The notes below the pieces were generated by a model. It made no database searches and had not been told where the DNA came from. It saw only the letters and a list, made by a program, of their open reading frames with translations. A DNA stretch of 64,000 bases, taken from the NCBI GenBank assembly GCA_014871385.1, contig CM026427.1, positions 5,216,988 through 5,280,987 of the forward strand, given 5' to 3'. Shown here in pieces: positions 21,001-45,371 of this stretch. Position numbers and translations under genes: made by a program. Position 1 is the first letter of the stretch. Every line of letters starts with the position of its first letter. Source of the DNA: Ceratodon purpureus. Its lineage: Eukaryota; Streptophyta; Bryopsida; Pseudoditrichales; Ditrichaceae.

Positions 21001-24000
21001 ATGCTACCAAAGATCTCAGTAATCCTCGATTCATCATTTTCCTCCGGTATCCTCATGTAAGGAAAAACGGTTCACTAACAATCAGAAATCATACGTACGT
21101 CGTCGTTGGCAGATGCTGCTTGCCCATGATAAAGCATATAAGCTTCTCGACGTACCAGTCACATCGCCGCGAAACAGCTCACAATCCCCAGCCCAAACAC
21201 ATTCATCTCAAACCTACCACGGAGACATGACTCTGCAGTTGTCTGTAAAAGAATGTAGGAGCTAAGTAGGCACTCGAACACAATATGCCAGTAGTAAGCC
21301 AGTAGCCGCGAAACCAAATCCAGTTGGCCCATTAAACGACACATGAGCCTAGGATCACAGTGTAGCAGCCTCCTACCTTTTCGACGTCGAACCATTCGTG
21401 ATCGTTAGTAAATGACGGAATGACACCTTACCATTGGGTTCGAAACCCCAGTAGTGTAGGTGCCATGTGGTCCACCCAAACCTGATCAAACAGCGGATCA
21501 AGGGACATTTCCTAAATTTTGTAATGTAATGAATCTCTAAGCAAAATCAGTCTACAAATTAGTCACACTAGAACAATTACTTTATTGGAAAAACACGCAG
21601 AAGAGGAGAATTTGGACTGAAACTTAAAAACAGAAGATAGTGGACAGCAAATACCAACATGGGCAAGAGGGCAGTAGGAAAACGACAGTTTACAACGACA
21701 CTTTTCTCCCACTCCACCCCACATAGAAAACACCAACGACAGACCACCAAACATCACCGAATTGCAAACAGTAGGATTGTAAACAACTGCAAGAGAATCC
21801 TTCGTCACTCACCGATGAGAGCAGCAGCAAACAGTGGAAGCAATACACCACCAACCCACCTCCCAATCCCACCCCATTTATTTTGAGGCATGCATGGACA
21901 GTAAAATACAGTGCATGGGAAAATAGGCAAGAATGAACGGGGCACACCTGGAGACGTGATACCAGCACCTCCTACTCTTGAATTGTGCTGCACAGCCGTC
22001 GGACCAAACAATATGCTCGTTAGGCTTGATCCCCCTATCAGTGATATGCTTCCAATGCCGTGCAAAGCAATGCTGGACAAAGAGGGTATCATGCTCCGCG
22101 TCATCGCTGATATAATAATGATATTCGGTGATGAGCTTGGGTGCACCTGATCCTCGGTCAGCAAGGTAAATCGGATTCCACCGGTACATGATGTGCACTA
22201 GTATCGTTATCTGGTGCTGGAGCCAGTGCATGGACTGCACCTCTTGATAGGGCTGAAAAGTATAGTTCTCAGCGAAATCCACGACAGACAGAACTGAGTC
22301 GGGTGGAAAGGTATCTATTGAAACCTTGTACTGCTCGGCCTGCCATTTCGCTACGTAGTTGTGTACAATGAAGGGCCTCAACTTCTGCCTCAAGTAATCA
22401 AGAAAGACAGGCGCCCCTGTGGTCTTGTACATCATACGAAGAACTTTGTTTTCCTTCCCTGCCCGCGTTTTGCCATGAGCAACCATCTCAAAGTTATGCC
22501 ACTGTACCATCAAATTGACACTCTCGTCCTCTTCCCGCGGACACAAGGGCAGCATGTCCACCCCACATACGTCACACTCGCCCTTGATACACTTTTGACT
22601 GTGCCAGCCGTCCTCCTGTACCGGACAAAGAACGCTGTGCCACATATCTGTTAACCCTGTGAAATGAGTCAACTCAGCATGGCAGGTAGATGTCCGGTCC
22701 ACTAATGTCGACTCCACACTTGCAGGCTTTTCGCAGACCTCGCAGCTGCACCCACAGTGGCGCCCATGTATACCCTTCGTTGTTGTCCTCATGTTATTCC
22801 AACCAATCCGTAGCTCTGCCATCTCGCAGTGATAATGACAGGCGCAGGTATTCCTCTCCCTTAACCTTCTCACGTAGAAGGGCTTCAGCCGCTCAAACGC
22901 CCGTAGCCCCACCTTCCTCGCCTCGTTTGCTTCCCTGAACCGCGCATGGAACTCTAACTGTAGGACACGCACACACCCACAAAAATACATCAAAGAAGCC
23001 CTGTCAAGCCAGCCAATGAATATCCCGCATACCCCAATTCCGTGCTCAGTCAAACCGCAGTGGTTCCCTTTTCCCATCCAGGTAATAGCCGAGACACCGT
23101 ACTTCAAACTGAATTCGGCATGGCTCACAGTCTAATATGCAATTGGTGCCCAAGCAACCGGTTCTTAGTTCACAAATCTAGAGTTAAACCATGTCACCCA
23201 CGTCGGTACATTGGAATGCATAACTTTCATCGAGTCAGGGACTACCGTAGCAGCCGACTGTACTGCACACCTGTCCATACAACTCATGCCACTTCGCACC
23301 ATCAAATGGAGCTTAACCACATAATGCGCAGGCATATAATTATGCCAACATCTAAGTCGACGAGTATTGGTAGTGCCTTACCTGTTCATCTCCTTCCGAA
23401 GGTAAGTCTGATCCTAAAAAACGGACGCGAAGAGCACAAAATCAGACATTGCCGTACGCCCCCCATATTACGCTCCACATGACCAAAAAGGCGTGTCCGC
23501 AGTAGCATTCTACTCAGAGTAACGGACTACAACTTTACATCTTCGTGGAACTCAATGGAAGTACCAGCAGAAATTCAGAGATGACAAGGTTGAACAGTGT
23601 TATCTCACCTGTGACACTTGCAGATAGTGAGTGGCATGAGTCTCATGCTCCTTAACTCCAGTCCTACGTCTTTTCACGTCTCGCTTATTAGGGGAAACAG
23701 TAGTCTCAGTCTCCCACCAGGAACAAACCGCATATGTATCCTCTGGAGTAAGAGCGTCGCTCCGCCTCTTTCTGCCCCCACCGTCCCATAGATTCTCTCC
23801 AGTTTCGTCGACCTCAGCACGCCGTTGGAACGCTTTGCGAACAAGATATCGAGACGCTCCCAGTGCATTGCAAATGTTGCGCTGGGAATGATCGCCCTTC
23901 GACACCGCTGCCGTCAGCACGATATTCCGTACCTTCAGTTTCCCTTGTATAGTTCCTGATCGAATGCTTTGTAGTGCCCCTCTCAAACTTTGTACCGTCG

Positions 24001-24809
24001 TGGTAGCCACAGATCGCAATTTCAGAACAGCCTTGGTCAATTCTGGATCAATCGCGCGGATGCGTTCATCTGAAAAATACCGGTGCAACACATTTCTCTT
24101 CTCCTCATCCGAGAACCCCGCATCCAGCATGCGCATGAGATCGTTCACTCCCTTAGAAGCTGCCCATGAGCACTTCCGGTTGCGTGGGATGACTCTTTCG
24201 CCGTCTACATCGTCGCCACTTACGTGGTCAGATTCCGTGGACTCAGTGTGGACCACATTCTCCTCCAACGACTCTGCCTCAATTGAGATTCCCCCAGCGC
24301 TGTCTCCGTTGCTGCACCGAACCTCCGTGCCTCTGTCATTATCCCCATGCTCCACGATGTCAGGCTCCTCGTCTTCATGCGTCCCTGAAGGTCCCTCGCC
24401 ACTTCCCTCGCCTACGGTAGGCACAACCTCGTCCGGTACAGAGCGAGTTCGCCATCTGCGATGATGCTCGCGCTTCTTTAGAAGCCTGTTCCAAAGACCA
24501 CCGAGCCTATGAAACTTCGCACCAGAAAATTAACGCTCTATTCTATTCCATCCGGTCAGTACTGCTAGCAGTAATGATGTGAACCATGAAACACACGGCG
24601 CACACACTTCTCAGAAACATCAACCTACACTCAGATTCAAACAAGGGAGGAAGGGTTTCTAGCGTTGGAATTACGCACCTTTCTTCTCGAAGTCGGTTCT
24701 GCTCAGCCTCCTCCAGAATCTCTCGCTCTCTTCGCTGGCTAGCCTCTAGCTTGAGCTCTCTCCTCCGACTCGCAGCCGCCCTGGCGTGAGCATTTCTCTT
24801 TGAACCCAT
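18018..24809 (-). CDS. Transposase-like gene A (DDD RNase H-fold type), 1051 aa
   Basis: Five minus-strand exons (24809-24679, 24506-23609, 22957-21948, 19288-18790, 18635-18018) join in frame to one intact 1051-residue protein. The start of exon 2 could shift by an in-frame choice of acceptor. The N-terminus is an Arg/Glu-rich helix, then an acidic region, then a DNA-binding-like segment ending in KDVxRxRxG and THYL. The central part has many Cys pairs ([24 protein letters not shown]), probably zinc binding. The likely catalytic core carries VVDFAENY (D about 570), [16 protein letters not shown] (D about 663) and [11 protein letters not shown] (D about 711). The protein is clearly homologous to gene B at 28.8-32.1 kb across these blocks. 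Exon 1 directly abuts a receptor-kinase relic and no terminal repeats were found, so it could be a domesticated or rearranged copy. Intron 3 is 2.66 kb where gene B has none. Confidence 0.8.
19289..21947. other. Large third intron of gene A
   Basis: A 2.66-kb stretch between phase-2 splice sites of gene A, without any coding domain. At 21437-21467 it contains TTGGGTTCGAAACCCC, which fits a tRNA-type B box (GGTTCGANNCC) and could be a SINE remnant. The size suggests a nested insertion, but I could not see its ends. Confidence 0.5.
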
Positions 24810-26300
24810 CCCTATCTTGCTGAGGTCCTGTTCCTGAGAGGCCGAAGCCTGACAGTTTGGAAACTTCTGATTGTGTCGTGCCTTGGAGTAAAATGATGCC
24901 ACTCTTCACATCACGATGTATGATGCTCGTGGTGCAGCCTGTGTGTAGGTACTCCAAACCTGAAAACAAAAACCACACATATGATTGAGCACTATGAGAC
25001 TAAAAAGGGCGCCTTTTTTATATACCAGACTTCAGTCTTTTAAAGTTCTGGAAATTAGAGATGCGTCGCGCGTCACCTTCTGCTGCATTTAGAGCAATCC
25101 TTAGACTCTATCCTCCAATTAAGGGTTTGCGTAGGCTTAGGAATTTCTGCAACATCCCATTCATCGATTAGCTCAGAAAGGATCATAGGACGTGGAATTC
25201 AGAACCCATAACTTGAAGAAGTCGATGCAAGTTCTTGGCTGAATGATATACCACATACTTGATCATGTTTGTTGAGCCATTTCGTAGGTACTCCTATACC
25301 AGTATTTGCTTCTGTTTTTCTTGGCAATATCCCAACAACTCTACCAACATTTTGTGGTGCACTCTGGATAAAAGTAGAGCCTGCATCATAATCAGTGTTC
25401 ATCACGTACCGCTACAAGCTTAGGCCGAAACAAGTAGAAATATTGCATTACCATATGGATCTTAAACAATAGTTGGTAAAAATCAAATAGTGAACGGTGA
25501 ATGCCACGTATTCCATTCAGCAGAAACCAGTTGGTTGAAATGCTACAACCGTACGAGGATTCTGGATATTCTTTAGATTCAACAGTTGAAGATATATGGT
25601 TGTAAATATTCATACCTCATTCAGGAACTAATGTTCTCCTCGACGAGTGGACTCATCAGCGACCTTCACAGCCACTTCTCTTCCATCAGGAAGTGTCCCA
25701 TGGTAGACTGGTCGAAACCCTCCTCTTCCAATTTCCTTTTTGAAGTTATTAGTGGCAGCATCCAATACTGCCTACGCGAAAGGCTTGGCTGAACTGACGG
25801 TGATGCCCAACCCTACTCTCACAAACGCATCCAATTCCCAAGTCACATTCCAGTTATGAGATTAACACTCAAATCAGAAATGATATCTACCGTGTTGATT
25901 TTATATTAGTAGACATTCTTGCGTCATTTACTGAGAGGTCTCACTTTCTTGTCAAACTTCTAAACCATTGAATGTGAAGTAGCAAATTCTCTTGACATCC
26001 TTGTCTACGCATATGATATAAATGAGCTGCGTTAGAATTACCTTGAAGAGACACACTTGCAGCGGGTCCACCCTCTTGCTGTCTACGTTTCTAACACCGA
26101 TACCCAAAGAAAACACGTATGAAGATGATTATAAGTGCGATGAGGAGCCCGCCCACAGTGACACCAATAACAGCTCCGGGATTTACTGAATTAGAAGACG
26201 TAGGAATGTTTTCCTTGCAGCCATCATCGGCAAACTGGTTTCCAGGGCAAGACCTGCAACCAGTACAGTTGACTACGAACATTGATTGTATCAAGTTTCC
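24810..26300 (-). pseudogene. LRR/malectin-type receptor kinase pseudogene
   Basis: Minus-strand exons retain the order of a plant receptor-like kinase. About 26250-26045 holds a transmembrane helix (GAVIGVTVGGLLIALIIIF) and a basic stop-transfer segment (KRRQQEGG). About 25787-25640 holds the N-lobe, with NNFKKEIGRGGF and GREVAVKV (glycine loop and VAVK lysine). About 24960-24810 holds the catalytic loop ([19 protein letters not shown]) and a DFG-region homologue. It is broken by an in-frame TAG between the membrane helix and the basic segment (26091-26093) and a second TAG after GEH (about 25640). The DFG is changed to SGFG, helix-C exons are unrecognisable and the C-lobe is absent. The homology stops within a few bases of the ATG of gene A, marking a rearrangement breakpoint. 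Confidence 0.8.
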
Positions 26301-27919
26301 TGGGAGTATTCAAGATAGTTTTGCTTAGTAAAACAAAGAGGCATTAGAGAAGGTCAATTTTCAATTATGAGCAAAATGCATCTGAAGGCATGTGGGATTT
26401 GAAATTAGACAGAGTCATTACTCGGAAAAATTGCAAGTGCCACACCAGAAAACCCTAAACCGTATACCGACAGTCCATGTGAGAGCTGCATCCTCAGACG
26501 AATTACCATTCTGGGATAGACAGAATCTGCTTTGTAGACCATGTTGACAACAAACCAAATGCATCTCGAAGCTCAGCAGAACATCGTCGTCGCTACCAAA
26601 TCCAGGGTGTCGATGTGTGTGAGAACTACCATGTATGCGATGGCAAACTAAATGTCGGACCCTAGTCCACGGCATATGTTCTACATCGAACATCAAGTTC
26701 CCGCCTTCACGTCGACAAGAAACCGTACCTAATGCCTCAGACGAGATGTTTTTTTATTCGCAGAAGTATGTCCTATAGCCCTGCATCCCGTATTGCCAAC
26801 GTCGTTCCCATCTTTCGATCTCTGATCCCAAATCCCATCTAACACTTTATTCCACTCCGCTTGGCGCCGCTTTGCATTCCATCCGCCGGTCGCTTCCTCT
26901 TCTCGGCCGCTGGGCATCTGTCTTCTACGACCCCGAACTTGGAGCACCAATTACTGAGCACGTACAATCCAAACTTGCATGGTACTCCCTAAACCCTGGG
27001 CATGCCCATCACACACTCAATTCGTAAGCAGAACTGCAAAGATATAGAGTAATCCCTTGTCACATGCCCATCCTTAAAATTCAGAATGAAGAATACAGCA
27101 TCAATTCCCGAACCCATCTCACATTCGCAGTTCTGCTTCCATCAACAAGCACTCAGTCACCTTCAGTTCCACATGTAGGCCTGAAACCCCTAAACCCTAG
27201 GTTGGAGTGTGATACGAACCTGGAAACAGTACTCTGCATTTGGTTGAGGTTGTCGATTATTCACCTCGTCTGCACCACCTCCTCTTTCACTGCACCTCTG
27301 CGCTCCAGAACCCTAAACCTTATGTCCCCAGTGCATTTTTGGATACTCGCACACCATGCAAATCTCTCGAATCAATAGAGGTCCTCCGTAGCAGACTATC
27401 GACTACCTGTCAATTTCCCATCATTTTCCCTAAACCCTAATTCGCAATTCCAAGAGCACAATTCCATTCTGACGCACTCGCAGTACTGTGGACTCCAGCA
27501 CCGTCATTGTTTCCATGCATTAGCATCTTTCCGGAATTATTCCAGCATCTGTTGGTGCAACCCTAAAACCTTTGAATTCGGGAAATTGCCTATCCCCCCA
27601 TCCCCTAAACTATCATCTGTTGATCATCTTGGAAGATAAACAAAACATTTACAGCGACTGCACCCAACAAGTGACGACTGTACCATCAGCTAACACCGCC
27701 AGTTCATTACCCGCACGAACGAGGTCACCCCTGAGCAGAACTCACTCATGAGGTTCCCATAGAACCGCTTAACCACCCGGTATGGCGTGGCACTCTCCTG
27801 AGGCACTTGCAACCCGCTGCCACTTTTTCAACAGTGAATTTAAAGTGGGACCTCATTTTTTAAATTATTCCCTTTTCACTTTTTTTTTTTCTGCTTGATC
27901 AATATAATGTCAATATCAG
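26301..27919. other. Intergenic rich in telo-box motifs, left flank of transposon
   Basis: At least six CCCTAAACC-type motifs lie between 26985 and 27610 (for example near 26990, 27187, 27310, 27432, 27560 and 27603). These are plant telo-box elements, not a telomere, because they are scattered. An Arg-rich frame on the minus strand (26950-26729) is unassigned. The last bases before 27920 are TATCAG, whose TCAG is the left target-site duplication. Confidence 0.45.
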
Positions 27920-27952
27920 GGGTGAGAGTACACTAGACCCTTGTACTTTTGT
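27920..27952 (+). repeat. Left terminal inverted repeat
   Basis: Begins GGGTGAGAGTAC and pairs with the right end with two short mismatches and one gap over about 30 bases. It is preceded by the target duplication TCAG. Confidence 0.85.
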
Positions 27953-28815
27953 GTGTCACACCGAAAAAATGTCAAAGTACTTGAATTTGTACTTTGAATA
28001 ACTCAATGTTGGAGGTCGTTTTCTGTCGATTGGTTGTGTTTCCTATGTCATACAATACTTTAAGGGAACTAACCCGATAAGAGTTATGAAAAATAAAGGA
28101 AGCACATATGTATATTTGATACTTTTGCACAACTTTAGGCGGATGTCACAAAGTACAAAATTATCACAAAAGTACAAAGTTCGTGGATCATTCAAAGTCG
28201 AAATAATGCTGCCGCCTGTTAGAGAATACCTGACATGGAGGCCACTGAGATGGGAAATGAACTGCTACGGTAGCACAAATACAATTTCGTAGATCTAGAG
28301 GAGAAGTAACGGTTTTTTTGCAGTGCAAAAGTTGTGCAAAAGTTGTCTAATTTTTAATTTTTCTGGCAGTTTCTAGAAGAGCACGAACTAACCCAGGATG
28401 GCCAACCGTCGAATCAGCCAAAAAACTCTCTACCGGATATATCTTTTTTTACTAGTGGCTGCGCAGGAGCTTGTACTCGTAGTGCTTAAAGTACTCTTTG
28501 TACTCCCAGAGAAGTACGTGGCAGTCTACGTTCGCTGTCAGCGTCTTCATCGGACGCCGAGCCTCAAATAGTTCGTTACTGCGGCGCATCATTATGCGTC
28601 GAGGCGGCGCTTCAGTCTCCTTCACTAAGTCCTCTCATGAGCTAGTGGAGGGGGCTCTCGTTGAATGCTTCCTTGTGCTGTTTTTTTTTTTTGCCCACAC
28701 TTCTGTTATGCATAGCTGGTTCAGAAGTTCATGTACTCGACTTCTTCTCTAAGTGTTCTTCTCGCGTCTCTCCAGTTTCAGGACTTTGCAAAACTTAGCT
28801 TCGAAGGAACTACTC
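27953..28815. promoter_or_regulatory. GTAC-rich left subterminal region and leader of gene B
   Basis: About 860 bases with many GTAC tetramers (near 27976, 27991, 28145, 28171, 28476, 28500 and others), often as AAGTACTT or TTGTACTT. This is the expected place for the transposase promoter and for transposase-binding subterminal repeats. No TATA assignment is made. Confidence 0.5.
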
Positions 28816-31800
28816 ATGGGAAATACTGCAAAGAGACGGCGTGTACGAGAGGGAATAGCACGTCCAGGTCCAGCTGAACGTGCTGCCGAGGTTGAAGCCC
28901 TTGAGGCTCAAAGAGTTGTTATCGCTAGTGCAGCTCGGGAGAGAAAAAGCAGGCAGAGAGTACGTGATAGGGAGAGGGTAGCAGAGTCTCTAGTTCTAGC
29001 TCATGACACGGCGGAGCAAGCTGCAGCTCGGTCCTTTACAGTGAGAGAGAGTAGTAGGATTTCCTTGAGAATCAGTCAAGCCATTGTTCAAGAGTTGAAA
29101 CAGTGTCCGAATCTAGCTGGGCGGAGAGATGTCATGGAAAGGGTCCTTCGTCATTCTACAGTTTCTCCCTTCTTGCCTGATTGTTATCACCGTCCACAAG
29201 AAGCACGAGCTAGGGATGCGTTTATTGACAACTTTAAGAATGAGCTTCGTTTAGTCAAGGTTGCAAATTCTCATGATTACTTAGCTCGGAAATCAGCTCT
29301 TCTAGATGCTGCTGTTAGTTGCGGCTCTAATGTCCGAGTGGGTGCCTTGTCTAGAATACTGGACACAACTAAAGAGAGTATTAGCATTGCTTTGAAGAGG
29401 AGGTTACCAGAGGAGGATTCTCAGGGGTTACTGCCGAAGTTACGTCTGTCTCGGCAGCCAAGGGCGGGTATTTCTGATTATGTCAAAGAGTGCATACTCC
29501 ATTGGTGGGAGATACAGACCAAGGTTTCACCGAACAAGAAGGACATCGTTAGGCATAGGATAGGGCGCAAACTCTGGCTGGAACCTCATCCTACTCATTA
29601 TCTCTGCGAGACACAAGTAAGTTTACCATGAATCCTTTTCAACTTTGTTTTAAAACTTGGCAATGTGTACTACGTAGAGTGCTCTACCTTTTGATGTACC
29701 CACTAGAATGTACTGTTCCTCCACCTTGGTCATTGAAGAGTACATTACGTCGCATTACTCTATGCTCTGTAGTTTCAATACTTTGTCTAGGAGTACAGTT
29801 GTATTCTCCTGGCTGTGGGACAATCATATTCGTACTTTTGATTGTGGATCTTGTATTTAGAGTACAGCCATTTAGGCCCTCAAGTTTTTGATAGTTCCAA
29901 GATGTACTGGCACTGTGCTAGTCCTACTGACTGTAAGAAATTTGTGTACACCTTGTATCCTTTATCGAACTATGTATCATGGGATGCTAATTGCATGGGT
30001 AGTCTAGAGTACCATTTGTATTACACTACTACTTCAAGGTAACTAAAGTAATTCAGACGTACTTTAATAGTACTAGGATGTGGTTATCTTGTAGAATATG
30101 TAGAGCTCTAGTACTTAAAGTATCCGGAATGGTTATTGAGTACTAACCTAGGGCAACGTGTACTTCGCTGTCATGTTTGTACAGACGTCGGTCTTCCAAC
30201 GTTTCCTCGAAATCCACCCTGAATGCAGTGTTCGACAGAGGGCATTCGAGAGGTTGAAGCCGTGGTGGGTAAAGAAATTAAAAGAGAGGAATACCTGTTG
30301 CTGCATCTATCATGTTGAGATGGACATGATGAAGGCTGGATTAATCACTCTGAGGGACAAGCTGAGGGGTTTCCATACCTCAACAGACTGCACATGTCTT
30401 TGTGTGGTGTGTGCAGATGAACAAGGGACCGGTTGCCATGCTCACGTCTCAATTTTCAAACACATTACAGCCATGTGGGAGGCTTGTCTATGTCCTAAAG
30501 GAGAGTTCGAGAGATGGCATAGGTTAGAGTGCCTTATGGGTGATTGTACACAGTGTGGCTTTCATTTATTCAAGGTCTGTCCATTAGAGTTACAGGACTC
30601 TCAGACATTTGTACTGAAGTGGAAGTGCTTTGAGTACTACGAGGTTGGAGTGCATGCAGAGACAGGGCAGCCAAAGAAGAGATTGAGAGAGGCTTTCAAG
30701 GAAACGCCGGTCCATGAGTTCCTCTCGTATATGGAGAAGACAGTGACGACTTTCGTGACACACAATTTCAGAGCGAGGTGGCAAGATGAGCAGTGTCAGC
30801 TCATGATGAAGAATATCCCAGAAGGGGTTCTTGTGTCCCACATAGATTATGCTGAAAATTATACATTTGCAATTCAAAACGAAGTGCAAAGCATGTATTA
30901 TTTCAGCACTAGTGTAACCATTCTTGTACATATCACGATGTGGAGGGAAGGTGACGAAATCATGAAGCAGACGCATTATTATATTTCAGATGATAAGGCA
31001 CATGATTCGGCATTTGTGCAACATTGCTTAATGTTGCATTGGGACTGGGTGGTTGATGCTGGACTTACCATAGAGGAACATTGGGTATTCAGTGACGGCT
31101 GCAGCTCGCAATTCAAGTGTGCGACTGCCATGTTTTTTGTTGGTCGGTATCCGTCTCTCACTGGGGGGTGCTTGATGCGGTGGAATTTTTTTGAATCTGC
31201 TCACGGGAAGGGGGAGTGGGATGGTGCAGGTGCAGTGGTGAAAAGGGCGCTGAGAGCGGAGCAGATTCGGAACCCCCTCAGGCCGCTTCAGAATGCTGGG
31301 CACGTTGTTGATTTCTTGAAGGAAAATTACTCTGAGCGTGTTTCTAGCACATATGCTCAGTCAACAACTAACCCAATCTCCCGTGTCTTCTGGAACATAG
31401 GAGAATTCGAAGTAGATCACAGAGATAGTAGTATTAAATGTCGTACTTTACCAGGCTCTAAGAATTTGCACTCTGTCATGGGATTCTCTGTATCTGACCC
31501 TACTCTTCTTAGAACCCGTGAATTATCTTGCTTTTGCATCCCTTGTGTCGATGGTGATTGGAATAACTGTGAAAACTCCCTTCATGTGCAGGAGTGGAAA
31601 GTTCAGCGTCTACAGCCGCTTAGTGCCGGCACTGTAGCAAGCCAACTGGATTTGCTTGATGACGATGCCAACTGGATTCACGATGGAACTTCAGTGGAGA
31701 TAGGTGACTTGGTGTGTGTGGGTGATAATTTCATGATCCCGGCAGAGAGTGACAACGAAGATGGAGTTGATTACTACATACTGCAATGTCAACGTACAAA

Positions 31801-32092
31801 GTTCGTATTGCAAGAGGGTTTGTCGTGTCCATGGGGTGGTGTGTTTTCTGCTGGGGACAATGTGATCCGAGCTAAGTACTATAAGAAGTATGGAAGAGGT
31901 GATAAAACATACGTGTTTTGTGATAGGGCAGTTGATGCACATATAGATGCTCATCTGGTCAGAGCTTGCAAGTTCCCAATGGTTCTTGCAGCCCATAGAG
32001 TTAAAGGTAGTCCAGTGTACAAGATTACAGCTGAGTCAAAAAGGATTTGTGAGGATGCATTGAGAGACTGGTGGGCATTTAACGAAGAATAG
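28816..32092 (+). CDS. Transposase-like gene B (DDD RNase H-fold type), 902 aa
   Basis: Two exons, 28816-29616 and 30185-32092, join in phase 0 and give 902 residues from the first in-frame ATG to TAG. Residues 1-90 are Arg/Ala/Glu-rich. Residues 225-267 hold a DNA-binding-like segment with KVSPNKKDIVRHR and THYL, shared with gene A. Exon 2 has Cys clusters (CTCLCVVC, CLMGDCTQCG) that probably bind zinc, then the likely catalytic motifs HIDYAENY (D about 488), HYYISDD, FSDGCSSQFK (D about 571) and AHGKGEWDGAG (D about 613). A second Cys group (CFCIPC) and a basic C-terminal domain follow. Comparison with gene A shows all three Asp conserved, while the Glu of FFES is not, so the triad is probably D-D-D. 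It lies just inside the left end of the transposon and should catalyse its movement. The intron is GTAC-rich. Confidence 0.85.
29617..30184 (+). other. Intron of gene B with dense GTAC
   Basis: A 568-base intron (GTAAGT...TACAG) with about 16 GTAC tetramers by eye, against roughly two expected by chance. This shows that the GTAC signature belongs to the whole element and not only its ends. Confidence 0.7.
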
Positions 32093-32287
32093 AACACAAT
32101 GAAACAAATCATCATAACTGTATTTCCTATAGCTTAATACAAACTCTGAATACCATTGCCGTCAGTTCAGCCGATGATATAATATGTCCATTGTGTCCAT
32201 TGTGTACAATATTCAAAATATGTACAAATTGTCTTCTAAGAAATGTACTGCATTTGTACACTATGTACAATATGTGGTTAGTGTACC
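32093..32287. other. Convergent 3' spacer between gene B and RING-SET gene
   Basis: About 195 bases between two stop codons on opposite strands, with at least six GTAC tetramers and CCATTGTGT direct repeats near 32190-32205. It must contain the 3' ends of both transcripts. Confidence 0.6.
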
Positions 32288-35200
32288 CTAGGTAGAACAA
32301 GTACTGAATAACTCTGCTTTTCCCCTGCACACTGTACTCTCACACTTGCATTCAAAGTACGGCAGATCAGGGTCTTCTCTACTGAAGTCAGTTCCATAAT
32401 CCCACGTTAGTTCCTCCAATGGCTGAATCTTGCGTTTTGTGAAGAATGCCAGCTGGTAAAAGCTACGGTCTAACCTCCCGACCAGGACTGGGACATCTAC
32501 CAAGTTCGAATCTTCGCACCTGTAGATCCAAAAAAAAAAAAATTATAAGTATAGAAACCTAAGTATAAACCGGCTTATACAATACGGCCAAATAAAAGTG
32601 GGACCCACCGGTGGTTGAGGAATCGGGCCACATTCCCAAACCGGGTTGCATCAAGGCACAGGGCTGAGTTGTCATCCAATACTCGTTCAGCAGCCCAGTC
32701 GGCATCTATCTGTAAGGTATAAGTCGAGCCTCCCTTCATTCCTCGGTTCCTCAATATTTGCTCACCATTTGTCAAAATCTCTCCCGTCATCTCAAAGACA
32801 AACGCCCCTCTAGGGATAGGTACTCTTGCCCGGATACCCCATCCCATGTGGGCTGTACGAAATACCTCTACTTCGTATCTCATCCCTTGCTGTACAACAC
32901 GGTTCCCACAATCCATTGAACACCCACACTTTGCATTGCACTCAGAAATGAAGGCAGCCGACTTGTGAACCCCACATGTGACAACACTCTCAATACGACG
33001 TAGCTTAGTACAGTAGCATTGCAGAGTACTAGTACAGTCGTATGCCTCATGTATGCGTCGTTGGAGAAAAGAGTCCTTGAGGAAACCGCCTGCCCTGTAT
33101 GCAAATCTACCACCGTTGGCGGTTGTTGCACATGTACATTGACACTTGGCGGTCAAGCAGTCCCCTGAAGGGCATGAACAATATGATCCCTTGCCTAGAC
33201 TGGACAACGTAGGATTCACATGAGCCTGGTCGTGTACAATACTCTTGTTGATGTACTGAAATTTAGGCAAAGCAAATTCAGAGAAGACAAGAGGGATTGG
33301 GGTCTTCTCTAGTCCCCTAGACAAATCTTCAATCAGATAAGTGAACTGGCCCTGGTAGGTTTCCCATCCCAACAGCCCACATTCCCACAAATGTTATACG
33401 ACAATGTTAATTCATTGAAGTGAACCCCGCAAACGAGGTTACGATACAGTGCTGGGCAGGAGTCTCATGCATGCCCTAAACCCTCCACAAAATCTACCAA
33501 AATTGACAGAGAATATCTATCTCCATTGCCGTTACTTCCGGCCCTTGGACGCCGCCCCACCTACCTTACGTTTCTTCTCCAATTTCTTCTGTTTGGAGCT
33601 TCCGGGAGCTGCCTCATCACCGCCATCTACAGCTTCTGGATTCTCCTTCGCACTTGCCCTCGTGATTCTTTCAGTCGGAGTGTGGAGTTTCAGTTCTACA
33701 TCCCCCCCACCAGCAAGAGCTTCGTGAAAAAGCTGGGTGACACTCTTGTCCACGGAGTGTAAATTTTCGAGCGCAACCTCTTCAGTGTCGAGAGGATTCT
33801 GCTGAGAGCAGGGGCCGGGTTGCTTGACTTTCTTGCCACGACCCTCTACTCCCCTCTGGCTAGCACCTGCAATGAGAATCGAAATCAGTAGTAGAAGGAA
33901 CTAACTAAACAGAGTACACCTACTAAATCGATTAAGAGTCAGCAATTAAAAAAATGGTGAAGAAGTCTCACCTGTGGGTTCTGGGTCTTTAATTTCAGGA
34001 GGGCTCAAGTCGTGTTTCCTCCCGGGAAGACACTGGGATCCTGGAACAGGTTCTGCCGGTGGAGATGTCACCTCCATGTGCGTGTCCATCACCTGCACGG
34101 GAGCAAGAAGGTCATCTTTGCCCTCAATGAGGGGCTGTCTGATAGGAGAATCCCACTTAGCCTCCCCCCCGGCTAGGTCTAGATCAGGATCCTCTGCGAT
34201 GACGGGGCTAATGAAGTCTGGATGGTAGGACTTAAGAATCGGCAACGTTCCCTCCGAAGATTCACCGAGGGCATCCTTGTCACCGTTGCGAGTTGATGTG
34301 GTTGTCCCGGAGCTGGAGGGGAGCCTAGGCATCTTCTGGTCTCCTTCTTCATCACTTGAGGACTCATCTTCAGAGTCCAGCTCGGGCTCCCTAAGTTGTG
34401 ATCTCGCAGCACCTCCTCCCTCCAAGCACTCAAAGTGCGGTACTTCATCTCTCTTCCGCTTCGCTCCAGCCGCATTATGCTTCGACAACGTCTTCGAAGG
34501 GGCATGTTGCTGCGTCACCGGCAGTAATCTCTGACCTTGCACTTCGGGTTGAGGATCGTAAATCTGACTCGATCTCTCCTCCAGCACAATTGGTAACGAC
34601 TCAGCAGGCGCATGGAAGGAGAAGCCTGAAGACTCTGTGGCAAGCATGCACCAAAGATACAGTTAAGTTTACTCGAAAAGTACTAACTATGCTTAGACGA
34701 CTCCAAAGAAGGACATCATAGTACCTTCAACTGGACAGTAATGTATAGTATGTACACTGTCTGCGAGCAAGGATACAAACAGTAGGCTCATTGTTATACA
34801 TTACGTACTTAACATGCACAAGTGTACAGTGAGTACGAGAGTTCTGTACTTAGGCTACGAAATTAGTACAAGAGCACCGTCGCTTCATCGACGCCTTCAC
34901 AATGGAACTATACATTTAGTACTATAACAACAAAGCCGATTAAAGTATGTACATTTTTTTAGTACAATAGCAATTCAGCAGCTGTAGACACTGTATTCTC
35001 ATTGACCAGAGTGTACTCAATATACCATACCTACTAGAAAGAAGTGCACGCACAAATAGACTGTATCGAAGAAAAGTACAGTCACAAAAAATTGCTACCA
35101 CTTGAAGGTTTCATTCTAGACGTAAGTACTTATAGACTCTGGTAAGTACTCTACAAGTTTGCAAATTCGACAACATAGTAATTGAACTATTCAATATACA

Positions 35201-36991
35201 GCCTTATCACACACACTGACCCGTTTGTACCCTGCAAAACTGAAACCATACATAATAGACAGAGAACATACCATTTGATGGCAGCATCTCCTTCGCACAT
35301 TCTGCCCTTGCTTGGAGAACTCTGCTCCTGTCCTCCAACACGCCCATCCTTCTCCCCCGATCACGCATTTCTGTAGATGGATGTCCCCACCCAAAGCTGT
35401 TGTACCAGTCGGGATGGGGAATTGATCCACAGCCCTTCGCCAAGCACGGACCGGCATTGACAAACACCACGGACGCACAGAAAGGGTGATAAAGATGACT
35501 ACAACTAGATAGAACAACATCGTTACAGGGGAATGGAAAAAGACACAAGCAGCAGGCTGTAATTGCAATTGAAGCAGAATTCTCCGGACTCCCAACGACG
35601 GGCGAATCAAAGCCCTGGTTGTACACCATAGGACGTGGCCAGATGGAGGCGTTGCTCTTCCCTCGCTTTAGCTGGAAGTTCTCCGCTGATAGTGCATCAA
35701 ACAGCTTCTGTCTCCCCTCAACCATTGCTGCCACCTCCTCCAGCTCCAACTCGGCTGCTTTTTGCTCAGCTAGGTCCAACCGCATCTGAGCCTCTTCCTC
35801 CTCAAGCTGCTCCTGAATCCCTTCCATCTTAATTTTCTCCCGGACAGAGCTCTGACCCTCCGCCTCAAGCACGTCGATGCGGACTAACTTCTGCTGAATC
35901 TGATGCTTGCAACTGTCGACCAAGCAAGTTCTTTGTTTGCACTTCGACCTCGCAGCCTCCGTCCTCTCCAAACACTGGACCTTCTTCACGGCAAATGCCT
36001 TCAATTCCAGGTGCAAAACCCCCATCAACCCCTCTAACTCCTTGAGCCGCTCATGCACCAAACCCTTTCTCCAGCCTACTAACCCCTCACTACGATCTTG
36101 CACACTTCCCTGCACACACACCCCAGAACCCATCCCACTCTCAAAATTACCATCGCAATCACCTGTCTCGCCAAGGCAGGACCCTAAACCCGCATCCACT
36201 CCCTCCTTCTTCAGAGGCTGCGGCTTCTCCTTCCTGTCAAATGTCCCGCCCCCACGCTCCCCCTCCGTTCCAGGCTCAACCTTGATACTCCTCCATTCCT
36301 TCCCTCGAACATCCACGGGACCCTTCCCTTCAAACGTCTTCCTCAACGCCAGGAGTTTCGCAAGATCCTGCTTGTACCTTGAGCGTTGGCGTTCGTTTGT
36401 CTCTGCACCGAAGGCACACCAGTCCACGAACCCGGCCCCTTCTTCGTATTCAAAGGTCACCCCCTCCGCAAACTTAACCTTCACATTGTTCGGAATTTCC
36501 CCTGGTCCATGCTGGTACAGGATAGGGTGGAGGAACTTCACCCGCGCCACGACCTCAGGTACCTTGCAGTTGAGCCAGCAGAAGCCGGCGCGGCCTGAAT
36601 CTCCGTAGCGGGCTCCAAACAGCTTCTTCACAGCCTCGGCGCGCACCGTGTTCTTCCGGAACCGATGTGGGTTGTCACCTTCGAGGGGGAGGTTATACTC
36701 CCTGTGGAAATCCTCCCTAGTGAGTACGCGAGGGGGCGCCTTCAGACGTCGGATTTCTGCTTCAACATCCTCCACCGACTCAATCTTCTTCACGGATCTC
36801 CCGATCTTCTTCCGCTGAGATGCCTGACCCGCCTCCTCATTGCGAACCGCATCGGCGTTGCCCCCTTCCTCGTCGCTGCAGGCCTCCGTCGCCGACTCCT
36901 CCCTCCTGCTCGATACGCCTGACTTCGACTGCACCGGCCTACCCCGCCCAGTACCAGCAGACGGTGTCCGCGCCGTCAAGCTCTCCTCCAT
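32288..36991 (-). CDS. RING-SET protein, SUVR-type histone methyltransferase, 1219 aa
   Basis: Five minus-strand exons (36991-35272, 34634-33972, 33866-33565, 33351-32609, 32519-32288) join with matching phases (1, 1, 0, 2) into one 1219-residue frame. Residues 1-300 are an unknown basic/globular region with GFVDWCAFGAE. About 310-455 is Glu-rich coiled coil. About 480-530 is a RING-like Cys/His motif (CLC ... CSHLYHPFC ... CLAKGC). About 575-895 is acidic and disordered. From about 930 comes the nine-Cys pre-SET region (CSCPSGDC ... CGCSMDCGNRVVQ), then SET with GWGIRA, NHRC and ELTWDYG, and a post-SET CKCESTVC. The catalytic motifs look intact and closest to plant SUVR proteins, which methylate H3K9. 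The usual N-terminal WIYLD domain is not seen. The gene lies wholly inside the transposon, convergent with the transposase. Capture from the host, with a new RING-containing N-terminus, is my inference. Confidence 0.85.
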
Positions 36992-37340
36992 CGCGACCCT
37001 AAACCCTCACAACAATATCTGTCTACGGCATACCCCTCAATGAGGAATCTAACCCTAACCCAACTCCCTCACACCCCAAACCCTGCCGCGGCCAAGCCCT
37101 CCCTCAACGTCCACAACGAGCGGAGCCACGCTCAGCACCAACAGCTCATTCAAAACATTGATTCGCTAACCTCCCCGCCAAAGTGAGGTGCGAGACGACG
37201 ACCGTCGGTCACCGGTCAGTCCGTATGATTACCTGAGGTCACCGGTTTCCTGCTGAGGGCGCGGATGACGCAACCGGTGACCAGCGGTTGCCAGTAGAAA
37301 AGACACCTAACTCACCAACTGCAATTAATAAGTCACTAAG
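36992..37340. promoter_or_regulatory. Promoter region of RING-SET gene
   Basis: Directly upstream (minus strand) of ATG 36991. It contains CCCTAAACCCTCA and CTAACCCTAACCC telo-box motifs at 37000-37060. GGTCACCGGT occurs twice in direct orientation (37207-37216, 37238-37247), with its reverse complement ACCGGTGACC at 37273-37282. This cluster of palindrome-like sites is a good candidate for factor binding. Confidence 0.5.
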
Positions 37341-37369
37341 GCAACCAGCTAGGATAGAGGAAATCTACA

Positions 37370-38570
37370 TGCCGGGCTATTTTTTAAAAAAAAATTAAGG
37401 AGATGAAATTCACATGGACAGCTCACAAGGTGGGCAAATGATAGATTTAGGAAGTTAAAAAATAAAAATAAATAAAAAAAATGGATATAATAGAAAGGGA
37501 AAAAAGAATATGAATGAATTCATGAAGAACAAAGAAATAGAAAATTTAATCAATTGATTTAAAACAAAAAAATAAAAAATAAAAATAAAAAAATCAAAAA
37601 AACATAAAATAAATGCAAATGAAGTGGATGATGATCAAAGTGGGGAAATGATAGATTTAGGAATATGATAAAGTAGAAAAAAAAAATAGTAGAAATAAAC
37701 AATAAGCAAAAAGTACAAATGAATTGATGAAGAAAAAAGAAATCAAAACTTTAGTCAATTGATTTGAATGAAAAAAAAAAAAAAAAAAAAAAAACAATAA
37801 TAATAATAAAAGAAGAATGCAATAGAAGTAGAGAACTCACAAGGTGAGTAGATGATAGGTTTGAGAAGATGGTGAAGGATGTCTACAAAAGGGTTGAACA
37901 ATGAAATTAAATTAAAAAACCAATAAAGATAAGACTTAGTTAAAAATAATGAATGAATGGATGAAGAAGAATAAAGTCAAAATTGAATCCATAGATTAGA
38001 ATTAGAAAAACAAACTACAAAAGAATAAAATTAAATTAAGAACGATAGGATGTGGAATACTCACGAGGTGAGTAGATGATATATTTAGGAATATGGTAAA
38101 TGATGTCTACAAACGGGTTGAACAATAAAAGACAATTAATTAAATAAATAAAAATAGGACCCAATAAAAAAAAGAATGAATGGATGAAGATTGAAGAAGA
38201 AATAAACTAAAAAAAAATCAATAGATAAGAACTTTAAAAACAAACCAATCATCAAAGGAAAATTTAAAATTATAAAACAATTGGAATTGAAGTGGAGAAC
38301 TCACAATGTGGGTAATTGATTTTTTTATGAAGATAGGATGCGATGTCTAGAGGAGGATTGAAGAATAAAGGAAAATTAAATAAATAAATAAAAAGGGAAG
38401 GACAAAAAAATAAATTGATGAATGGATGAAGAAGCAAATAATGGAAATTGAATTCATAGATTATAATTTAAAAGAAAATAAGAAGAAATAAAAAATAAAT
38501 TAAAAAATAAACCAATGAAGTGGATAACTAACATTATTAGTAAATTATAGATTTAGCGAAGGGTTAAGAT
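37370..38570. repeat. AT-rich tandem array, about 200-235-bp units
   Basis: A-rich DNA in which the block AACTCACAAGGTGAGTAGATGATAG (or diverged forms) recurs near 37430, 37645, 37845, 38075, 38305 and 38520. Each is followed by a TTTAGGAATATGG-like segment, GAATGAATGGATGAAGAA and a poly-A-rich stretch. Units are about 200-235 bases and diverged. There are no ORFs. It sits inside the transposon between the RING-SET promoter and the right end. Confidence 0.75.
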
Positions 38571-39134
38571 GTCCTATATACCTAGCTTTCATGTCTCCAA
38601 TACTGTGTAGGGTATCACAAATGTATTCTATGGAAAATCATTCAACAAGTAACTGAATCACCCTACACCCTATATTTACAAGTTGAATAAGGACACTAAA
38701 ATTCAAATTAAATACAAATTTTCATCACAATATGCACACCATGTACTTGATTTCATCTAATATTCATCCAAAATAAGCATAAATTCTACTTAACCATAGG
38801 TCTAGGCACATAAAAAATTGAAGATACCAAGTTATACATCTCGAATCTGTGACCGCAAGTAAGATCCACATCACAATGTTGTTCACATTGGATGCTGCAG
38901 CCTAACTCAAACCAGCCAGCTTGTCACCGTCCTCTTTATCCCAAGATTCTTGCAGACGATGCTCGCAGCCTCTCTGTCCACGTGACGCAGACGTCTTCCC
39001 ATTGGCCGAGCCAGATCTGACGGTCCTCGTGACTCCCTGACTACCCCTTCATCCGACGGCCAACGGTGACCGGGGCTTAGTACTCATAGTACAATATAGT
39101 ACTTCTGAGTACAACCGATACAGTAGGTTTTTGC
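38571..39134. other. Right subterminal region of the transposon
   Basis: About 560 bases, AT-rich at first and then moderate. It ends with a cluster of GTAC tetramers between 39079 and 39113. No coding frame is evident. Confidence 0.5.
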
Positions 39135-39167
39135 CAAAAGTGACATGGGTCTAACGTACTCTCACCC
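39135..39167 (-). repeat. Right terminal inverted repeat
   Basis: The + strand ends GTACTCTCACCC at 39167, the complement of the left end, and is followed directly by the TCAG target duplication (39168-39171). Confidence 0.85.
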
Positions 39168-39171
39168 TCAG

Positions 39172-40866
39172 TGAAAAAACATTTAAATGCCACAATATTT
39201 TCCAAGAAGACACCAAAAAGTGTCCCGGAAAACAAGCCTCCGAAAACGTCCCTACCGTACTTCTCGTCCATCCAAACTTGCAAACAAAGTGGTCATGCCC
39301 GTTTCTGCATCCGCAATTCAGAAACGGAGGCCGCAGCGCAATCAAAAGTGAATTCTGATAAAGTTTGCTCCTTTTCTAGGCACTTTTTCAAATGCCAGCA
39401 TTCACTTCGTCTCACTTCCAGGTACTCATAGGGCATCGTAAAAGCCGCACCTTCTGTCCAAAATTTCCGAGACCCGAGATACCCAAGTCTATTTTCTATA
39501 TCCCAACCCCCTTTCAACACATCCAAAACATACATACCACTTTTCTTAATGTTTACAACAATGGCTGAAATTGGCAATGAGCTAAGCACTTTTTTGGTAC
39601 ACTTTATTGTGCTTCCCCCCTGCATGATTGCTCAAGCTTCATTCCTGTTAGTTATAAGCAAGTTACTGAGTGAATTAAGAATGTTAAATAATAAGCAACC
39701 TCTCACCCTCAGTATCACGAAGCGCAGTATCTCAGCTATTGGAAGTATTTATGAACTTGCCTCGTAAATTCCATAAAGCTGATGCGTGGTATAATTGTAT
39801 AGAGAAAGGGGCAGGCCGGGCTGGATTGTGCGAACAGAATCAAGGTAACGTTGAGGTAACCCTATCAAATTTAACAAAAACGATAGCATCACATATCAGT
39901 CCAAGTTCATTAAAGTGCCGATTTCCTGAACACTTGCCTTCAACAGCTCTGGTAATCACCTACATTAGCACATTGAATTTACTGCGCTTCAGACAGCCAT
40001 CTCAAACAGTCCTCTCCACATCCTCCGAAGATTAGTAGACTCTTACAGAAATGAATCTCAATGACACAATGTTCAGACAGTCCAATGCAGACACTTACAA
40101 CATGCTCCTACCATCTTGAATCAATGTGGCAACAACATCAATTCTTACCATATCGTCCACTCCTCCGATCTGGTTGTCATAACTGACGCTACAATGGCGT
40201 TCGGTGAATAAACACGCTGCCACAAATTTTCGTCCTCTCTTCAAGTCTCCCCGGCAAAAAAACATAAGGAGATTCAAAAACCTGCGCTAAATTACACTCA
40301 GTTAGAAATCACTTCCGAAGTAGGTACAAAGGAAGGCGATCACGGAGCAATCCTGTCGAAAAACACCCTCAAAAACCTCACAAAGGTTCATAACAAGGTC
40401 GATTAAGAGATTGAAGTTAGTGTCGTTAGCTGCTGCAATACTTGATTACACGAAACCCTTGCAAGATGTGATTCTTGTGATTCTCACGAAAGAGCAGCAG
40501 TCTAGCTTACAAATCCTGCCTTCAAGCAGTTCGAGAAACAATCCCAACACAGGAAACAAAAGATGCACAAGAAGAAACAAGGCTGGTCATTCTCCCGCGA
40601 CTCGGAGCTCTTCACCTGCGACTCATAGAAGATCGGCACTCCAATCCCGACCGCAAGCCCCGCCACTCCCGCGACGGATTTGGAACGATGGTGGTGCACC
40701 GGCACATGAAGAGACGACGCCATGGCTGGGGCAGAAGGCAAAAAGCAAAAAGATCCGACGGCCATACAAGAACCTTGAGATCCGACGGCGGGGAAAGCAA
40801 GCATGCGCAGACATAGGTGCACACTGCGCGACCATGGGGGTCTGCGCATTAATAGGCGCACTTACC
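39172..40866. other. Right flank, unassigned exon-like segments
   Basis: Minus-strand open segments at 39625-39293 and about 40255-40130 (the latter ending in a good donor, ATG|GTAAGA) look weakly coding, but no domain is recognisable. CTCTCACCCTCAG appears again at 39700-39712 and copies the right transposon end plus part of its flank. 40560-40850 is GC-richer and has no assignable product. Confidence 0.3.
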
Positions 40867-44216: not shown

Positions 44217-45371
44217 AGTCAAAGACTATGTTGTTAAAGTAAAAGACTACTTCATTGTTGCCAAAGATTGTTTTTTTAAGGCCAAAAAATAAAAAATGAA
44301 AAATAAATAAACTAGCGGCTATTAGATACATATAGTTGATTATGAATAATACTTAGATATTTGAGCATGATGTCTTTTTTTCTCATATTCTACTTCAGAA
44401 AATCTCTTTGTACTTTGAAATATAGTTTCTTTGCCTACTAGGCTACTACTTACTTGAAGATGGACTAATTAAAAATTAGTAGGAATCATATCCTTAGAAT
44501 GTGGTGGAAGCATGGTGGAAGTATGATTAAGTAAGGTTTATTCAAAAAATTATGTAATTATACCATCTATCAGTAGAACATCAAGTATTCCTTTAAATTT
44601 CTACTATCTTAAAGACACAAAGGCAAAAGCCACACTACCATTATATCATACCCAAAAACTACAATGGCACAGAAATCATAATGCCATGGCCATAAGCCAT
44701 ATTATTGTAATTGACAAAATACCATTATTGTAACTTGTTTTATTCAAATTTAATCCTTTTAATCAAAATTAGCAAGGTTCTATGAATCCTTCAATGAGAA
44801 CAAACTCAAAAATCTGATCACAAAATTTAAAATTCACAATTAAGCACGGTCCAAGGCAATTATCAATTATCAATTACCAAATGTCCAACCTGCTATGTCA
44901 TATAGTAGAGGGAGGTTCCATAAACACATGTCCCACCACATGTACACAACACTCCACAAAGTTCTGAAAACCACAATCCATGATGTATAGATGGTCATGT
45001 TGAAAGTGTTGCAAAGCAGGGCCGAGTAGAAACTGCACAAGTTGGGCACAACTCAGAACTTTACTTTTCGAAATTGTTTGAGACTGTCTCCGTAGAGAGG
45101 CAGAATAATAATATTACCAGGACGCATGCTAGAACAAAACTAGTACAGGCAACTACCTAGAATTTTTAAAGAACTGTGAGTACTTAGAGCTAGCTTTATT
45201 CATAATTCTCTTATATGTGCGTGGCCATGACTGTATGTCAATGGCTTTTGGAGTAGTTGCAGGATGCTGGCCTGTATAAAAACCTGCATCGAAGATACAG
45301 ATATATTCTTTTCCGGTTAGAAATTATATTCCCGTCCACTCTCTGTTGATTTCTTCAGTGACCCCCTTCAA
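44217..45371. repeat. Duplicated segment copy 1, right part
   Basis: Direct repeat of 50415-51581 (about 6.2 kb away). Near-identical over long stretches: only scattered single-base differences from 44760 on. It ends abruptly after CCCCCTTCAA at 45371, inside what is coding sequence in the other copy. Confidence 0.9.
45153..45371 (-). pseudogene. Truncated copy of the 263-aa gene, last 73 codons
   Basis: This part of the duplicated segment matches the 3' end of the gene at 51363-52154, including the stop codon at 45153-45155 and the segment encoding the GFYTGQHPA region. The upstream 190 codons are missing because the duplication ends at 45371. It has no start, so it is a nonfunctional fragment. 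Confidence 0.8.

Follow-up and report, generated by a model that had tools for sequence, protein, structure and literature searches.

A moss DNA transposon family with a SUVR-type SET gene as cargo and helix-spaced WGTACW arrays in its noncoding DNA

SET genes are carried by the HarbingerS and MuDR families of Phytophthora (Kojima and Jurka 2014, as cited in PMC12730594), and the same paper describes fungal DNA transposons with TET/JBP genes. It is described in excerpts of PMC5735166 that VANC21 sits on a short motif in the introns, intergenic DNA and terminal noncoding DNA of VANDAL21 and removes silencing. VANC is a DNA-binding anti-silencing protein, and its motifs lie in tandem repeats with fast turnover (excerpts of PMC5735166 and PMC10398659). 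The Sola superfamily is characterized, in the passages of PMC10741241 and PMC9033089 used here, by a 4-bp target-site duplication (TSD), a short terminal inverted repeat (TIR, at least 11 bp) and a DDD transposase, and it was reported from the moss Physcomitrella.

The element described here lies in the window, which is the whole stretch of 64,000 nucleotides of Ceratodon purpureus DNA that was analysed. It is like the HarbingerS and MuDR families in being a DNA transposon with a gene for a SET histone methyltransferase, while those families, by the partial descriptions compared, have oomycete hosts and transposases of other superfamilies. It does not appear to be a HarbingerS element: Pfam gave no Harbinger transposase above cut-off, and its TSD is 4 bp, whereas Harbinger makes a 3-bp TSD. 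Like the fungal TET/JBP transposons it is a DNA transposon with its own epigenetic enzyme, which is a DNA dioxygenase in fungi and a predicted histone methyltransferase in this moss. Like Arabidopsis VANDAL21 it packs a short motif into its introns, its intergenic DNA and its noncoding termini and, by analogy, has an extra protein proposed to act on the element's own chromatin; in contrast to VANDAL21, it carries a SET enzyme, and its motif is palindromic, conserved in place and helically phased. The element seems best read as analogous to VANDAL/VANC yet unrelated. The features are as follows (window positions).

27916-27919, no strand: target-site duplication TCAG, left; a single TCAG at empty sites
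27920-27944, plus: left terminal inverted repeat; 12 perfect, 22/25; pattern common to 15 genomic ends
28816-29616, plus: transposase exon 1
29617-30184, plus: transposase intron; 16 GTAC (28 per kb), among the helically phased sites
30185-32092, plus: transposase exon 2; three invariant Asp, weak fold matches
32093-32287, no strand: intergenic stretch separating the two convergent genes; 6 GTAC (31 per kb)
32288-32519, minus: SET gene exon 5; SET end and post-SET Cys motif
32609-33351, minus: SET gene exon 4; pre-SET and the start of SET
33565-33866, minus: SET gene exon 3; fast-evolving linker
33972-34634, minus: SET gene exon 2; fast-evolving linker
34635-35271, minus: SET gene intron 1; 16 GTAC (25 per kb), among the helically phased sites
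35272-36991, minus: SET gene exon 1; conserved N-terminal region, predicted coiled coil, RING-like part below threshold
37401-38570, no strand: AT-rich stretch, repetitive inside; 1 GTAC per 1170 bases
38571-39142, no strand: right subterminal region; GTAC cluster, 6 in 38571-39167
39143-39167, minus: right terminal inverted repeat; pairs with 27920-27944
39168-39171, no strand: target-site duplication TCAG, right; directly outside the right end

The element covers 27920-39167 (11,248 bp). A preliminary description of this DNA had placed a transposon and its duplication at 27916-39171, which is correct, as TCAG is flush outside both ends; its inverted termini are also real, only the length of about 30 bp was slightly long, since 22 of 25 positions match and the first 12 are all identical. 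The exact terminal 12-mer was found in the window at the two element ends and nowhere else, and 10 window matches were obtained with up to two mismatches (3.74 expected). The terminal pattern GGGTGAGAGTACNNTAGACCC had 15 matches genome-wide, and the reversed-pattern control had 0. When the flanks were joined with one TCAG, full-length matches were found at five places with 99% and one place with 96% identity (40 scored of 257 candidates). Two inspected uninterrupted sites, which are paralogous copies of a related repeat, matched at 396 of 400 positions with a single TCAG and no insert. It means that the element inserted into a copy of another repeat and that the boundaries are exact. The empty site with a single TCAG foreseen in the preliminary description was thus seen, in paralogous repeat copies, and an unoccupied locus with the SET gene and without the transposase was not, both inspected sites being insert-free. 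The insertion target (27720-27919 plus 39172-39371) is itself a repeat, and two of the 40 scored among 257 candidates are the window's own flanks. Elsewhere in the window, direct repeats at 44286-44918 and 50487-51128 are 77-94% alike and about 6.2 kb apart, and are perhaps the ends of a retroelement; kinase-like coding remains with stops were read by eye at about 24800-25800 on the minus strand.

The source genome is 362.5 Mb in 151 contigs. The terminal pattern defined 11 loci, named W for the window copy and A-J for the other ten, and both ends are present in eight of them (W, A, B, C, E, F, G and J). Copies A, B and C have 99.6-99.7% identity to W over the full length; E, F, G and J are diverged, with main aligned pieces at 82-92% and pieces of the AT-rich part at 74-80% (pieces of 60 bases or less left out). 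All eight two-ended copies have perfect 4-bp TSDs, and all are different: TCAG, ATTC, GACT, TGTA, CATG, ACTA, ATGA and CAGA. The last terminal base is altered in G, and D, H and I had no right end within the stretches examined. A further element, K, belongs to the group with 75% transposase identity. It is 14.7 kb long (C7, about 2.549-2.564 Mb) with TSD AGAA, and its termini (GGGT....GTACGCTAGAC) are related to those of W but weaker (11/14 and 19/30). Its transposase exon 2, SET exon 4 and N-terminal exon are open, in the layout of W. The element is thus, by its sequence, a cut-and-paste DNA transposon of a large moss family which moved with 4-bp duplications, and judged by gene content it would be autonomous. 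Further full-length copies with both genes and 4-bp duplications, to which the preliminary description had looked for support, were found, and its termini are far from private to this copy, as 15 genomic ends match the pattern. Scored SET matches are concentrated on C6 (85 of 142, binomial p 5e-13), which has 110.5 Mb or 30.5% of the genome, and 31 of 69 scored transposase matches are also there (p 0.008). The U and V chromosomes of C. purpureus are each over 100 Mb, about 30% of a 360-Mb genome, according to the part of PMC8000587 used, and C6 is presumed to be the sex chromosome.

The sequence-based model of the transposase has two exons, 902 aa and a GT-AG intron with open frame, which bears out the intact transposase-like gene first described. 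Three invariant Asp (residues 230, 313 and 355 of ORF 30158-32092) were found in the 15 proteins compared; the 14 homologues include none with an informative name. The transposase ORFs gave no Pfam family above cut-off and one sub-threshold ISL3 HTH match. Foldseek gave no match at E<=0.001; its best E-values, which are weak, belong to NurA nucleases, RNase H-type proteins are frequent among the best 50 rows, and the top probability among these rows is a weak match to HIV integrase (0.85). The transposase likely belongs to the Sola superfamily, because of the 4-bp TSD, short TIRs, three invariant Asp and the Sola reports in a moss. Set beside Sola by descriptions, the element is alike in the 4-bp TSD (8/8 copies and K) and the TIR (12 perfect, 22 of 25), and unlike in its 11-15 kb with a second gene; its transposase is likely of DDD type. 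Remains of a second transposase, about 37% identical and broken into pieces, are present at 18018-24464 on the minus strand, where no TIR pair with 4-bp TSD was found at 12/14 matches. The window outside the main element had no SET match, including around this second transposase, which is perhaps a SET-less sister family.

The SET gene runs convergent to the transposase from 36991 down to 32288, and its sequence-based model has five exons, 1219 aa, GT-AG introns and an open frame. Pre-SET and SET of the window protein exceed the Pfam cut-offs, and a post-SET of SUVR type is present. The preliminary description of an intact, convergent RING-SET gene with SUVR-type SET holds, apart from the RING, which is not supported. 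All RING matches in Pfam are sub-threshold (E 0.07-2.8 in the relative P0135, 8.8 in the window protein) and the RING-like region has low pLDDT. In the structure model, a coiled coil is confidently predicted at about residues 297-442, and the N-terminus is otherwise mostly of low confidence. It had no known DNA-binding domain above the Pfam cut-off, and a protein search with the N-terminal part found one relative among 7992 scored candidates. PDB 3bo5 (SETMAR) is among the matches of the SET region. SETMAR is a host fusion gene of SET and transposase; the element is like it in the linkage of SET to a transposase, and unlike it in having two genes inside a mobile multicopy element.

GTAC is abundant in the noncoding DNA of the element (4.9 kb), with 57 sites against 15.75 expected. 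A milder excess was found in the coding DNA (30 vs 12.4 expected) and in the left flank (93 vs 68 expected), and the flanks have 2.6-3.3 sites per kb. In W the density per kb is 31 in the intergenic stretch, 28 in the transposase intron, 25 in SET intron 1 and 10-12 in the terminal regions, and GTAC is absent from the 409 bases upstream of the SET start and from SET introns 3 and 4. In K it is 10.6 (5' terminal), 23.6 (transposase intron), 12.7 (intergenic), 23.0 (SET intron 1) and 11.2 (3' terminal), with 0.5-4.7 in coding stretches and none in the 547 bp upstream of SET. Neighbouring bases of 47 sites are A or T in 85 of 94 cases, so the motif is written WGTACW. Tandem duplication was rejected as the source of the arrays, as TRF found no array in those introns. 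In copy E (C6, 36.5 Mb) the intergenic stretch has 280 instead of 195 bases and 14 instead of 6 GTAC, a local gain of the motif.

GTAC sites of the copies were counted, and their retention between W and J, F or I was scored, in four segments (the 5' terminal part, the intron of the transposase, the intergenic stretch and SET intron 1). Of 49 GTAC sites, 40 are retained between W and J, while other 4-mers are retained at 42% (binomial p 2e-8, in which overlapping words are not independent). Among 64 words, GTAC has the highest retention in the comparisons with J and I and the second highest in that with F. In all five elements (W, K, M, N and O) the spacing fits best to a period of 10.25 or 10.5 bp. 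With a jitter control, p(max) was <0.001 for W, 0.011 for K, 0.11 for M (not significant alone), 0.042 for N and 0.009 for O, using three stretches per element, of which those of M, N and O are untrimmed and may include coding DNA; the elements are related, and the tests are not fully independent. When pooled, GTAC is first of 243 words, followed by words overlapping GTAC, and neither the flanks nor the coding DNA of W gave a phasing signal. Read from the letters, the element has helix-spaced WGTACW arrays in its introns, between its genes and in its terminal DNA. As such sites face the same side of the helix, an oligomer may bind them cooperatively.

Our joint reading, to which we give even chances, is that this is a SUVR-cargo transposon in which an element protein on the WGTACW arrays gathers the SET enzyme on its own family and alters silencing. 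An element protein, either the SET N-terminus with its coiled coil or the transposase, would bind the arrays cooperatively; this would concentrate the SET enzyme on the family's own DNA, and the concentrated enzyme would methylate H3K9 there. Most likely, the element would change its own silencing in a sequence-addressed way, turning H3K9me1/me2 into a less repressive or self-limiting form, and the effect would most likely reach sister copies in trans. More tentatively, we speculate that the element is a self-addressed chromatin writer whose phased arrays of a palindromic site gather SET, either directly or via the transposase, with a possible escape from the H3K9me2-DNA methylation loop by a step from H3K9me1/2 to me3. 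Writing of H3K9 that alters silencing, more than just imposing it, is favoured by the VANC21-like distribution of the motif, by Arabidopsis SUVR4, which turns H3K9me1 into me2/me3 in vitro (excerpt of PMC7218100), and by a 2026 title that calls H3K9me3 permissive in Arabidopsis (PMC13017857, title). SUVR1 and SUVR2 had no activity in vitro in the same excerpt of PMC7218100, so a SUVR-type sequence is no proof of activity.

It is possible, if rather doubtful, that the transposase binds the GTAC arrays or that they enhance transposition, and that SET is an untargeted modifier recruited via partners. In favour of this, AGTAC occurs within the TIR, and GTAC reaches 10-12 per kb in the terminal regions. 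Against it, the arrays of W are densest in two introns and the intergenic stretch, mostly kilobases from the ends, and in K the two introns are densest.

An unlikely explanation is that a host factor of GTAC core specificity, such as an SBP-box or copper-response regulator, occupies the arrays, and that they solely drive or tune expression. GTAC is the core of SBP-box sites, and intronic enhancers exist in plants. Against it, no GTAC is present upstream of SET (409 bp in W, 547 bp in K), and helical phasing across hundreds of bases seems, in our judgement, unusual for simple enhancer sites.

The genome was also searched with both proteins, giving at least 69 matches of the transposase (69 scored of 1552 candidates) and at least 142 of SET (142 scored of 735 candidates). 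Among the scored transposase matches, 58 of 69 have a convergent SET match within 5 kb: 4/4 at 99-100% transposase identity, 19/20 at 84-97% and 35/45 at 74-76%. The other 11 of 69 have no SET neighbour among the matches listed, and 84 of 142 SET matches have no partner among the transposase matches listed. It means that the two genes are coupled across deep subfamilies. Transposase copies all lacking SET, which the preliminary description had named as contrary evidence, are not what the genome holds, and support for its transposon with SUVR-type SET cargo extends well past this one copy.

Between W and J, the DNA identity is 83% over the first 9.4 kb, both genes are open and splice sites are kept; SET frames and splice sites are intact in A, B, C and J as in W. 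The dN/dS of this pair (Nei-Gojobori, codons with gaps or stops skipped) is 0.076 for the transposase, 0.069 for the SET N-terminus, 0.163 for pre-SET/SET and 0.445 for the SET linker, with dS of 0.4-1.0 in the two conserved SET regions. Against W, the dN/dS of SET is 0.196 in F, 0.202 in G and 0.271 in I, and 0.415 in E, where it is inflated by a misaligned local inversion. The near-identical A, B and C have few changes (SET 0.195-0.366, transposase 0.09-0.361), and the broken transposases of D, E, H and I have 0.156-0.293. SET frames and dN/dS were scored in the copies other than D and H, and SET matches lie near both of these. The low values of the two conserved regions indicate that the SET protein is under purifying selection.

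The SET frame is broken in E, F, G and I, as might be seen if SET travelled along passively and had no function in the element. This is very improbable, since dN/dS is 0.07-0.16 in the two conserved regions at dS 0.4-1.0, and open SET frames and coupling persist at 74% transposase identity. F (C6, 71.551 Mb) and G (C6, 71.674 Mb) have a common 7-bp SET deletion, further stops and AT for GT at one donor, with open transposase frames. Their TSDs differ, and it seems that a SET-defective form moved, either once the defect had arisen or along with it. SET is thus not needed in cis by each copy, and its product may act in trans.

For the SET part, the 120 listed of 832 matches with E<=0.001 (1989 candidates, limited to proteins of comparable length) are plant proteins of SUVR1/2/4 type with 42-47% identity. 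The element SET has the same type of pre-SET, SET and post-SET as Arabidopsis SUVR1/2/4, and differs in a different N-terminus, a separate clade and no WIYLD match (Pfam) in the ORFs of exons 1 and 2. The one WIYLD match of the host genome is in a separate host SUVR gene on C1, 38-51% identical to the element SET in the two longest matches. This gene was not among the 98 matches listed for a liverwort SUVR (49 scored of 1013 candidates), and many of the listed places seem to coincide with those of the element SET search. An intron between NHR and C is common to the element SET gene and the moss host gene; at the other breaks of the host SET part, inferred from tblastn pieces, the element gene has no intron. 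In a midpoint-rooted tree of 12 rows, which took in 8 of the 120 listed plant proteins, the element SETs of W, J and K form one clade (100/100), separate from moss host, liverwort and angiosperm proteins. Probably, a plant SUVR gene was captured once from genomic DNA, long ago. That a host SUVR gene stands beside a transposase by chance or assembly error has the SUVR homology, and nothing beyond, in its favour, and is hardly credible, being ruled out by multiple copies with different TSDs, the empty sites and the separate, WIYLD-bearing host gene on C1.

The preliminary description regarded a plant DNA transposon with such cargo as new. No plant case was found in the literature outside most subscription journals and Repbase, but SET-carrying DNA transposons are published for oomycetes (cited in PMC12730594), and the idea itself is therefore not new. 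What is new in this element is the WGTACW motif, packed in noncoding DNA, conserved beyond its surroundings and spaced 10.25-10.5 bp. The combination of a phased motif array with a chromatin enzyme was not met in the literature, which was not searched for phased arrays. Whether a transposon can own a chromatin writer, beyond evading that of its host, now becomes a testable question. The large family, its many open copies and the defined motif make separate assays of binding, marking and transposition possible. If the reading is true, the enzyme-carrying DNA transposons known from fungi (TET/JBP) and oomycetes (SET) would extend to land plants, and would gain a sequence address.
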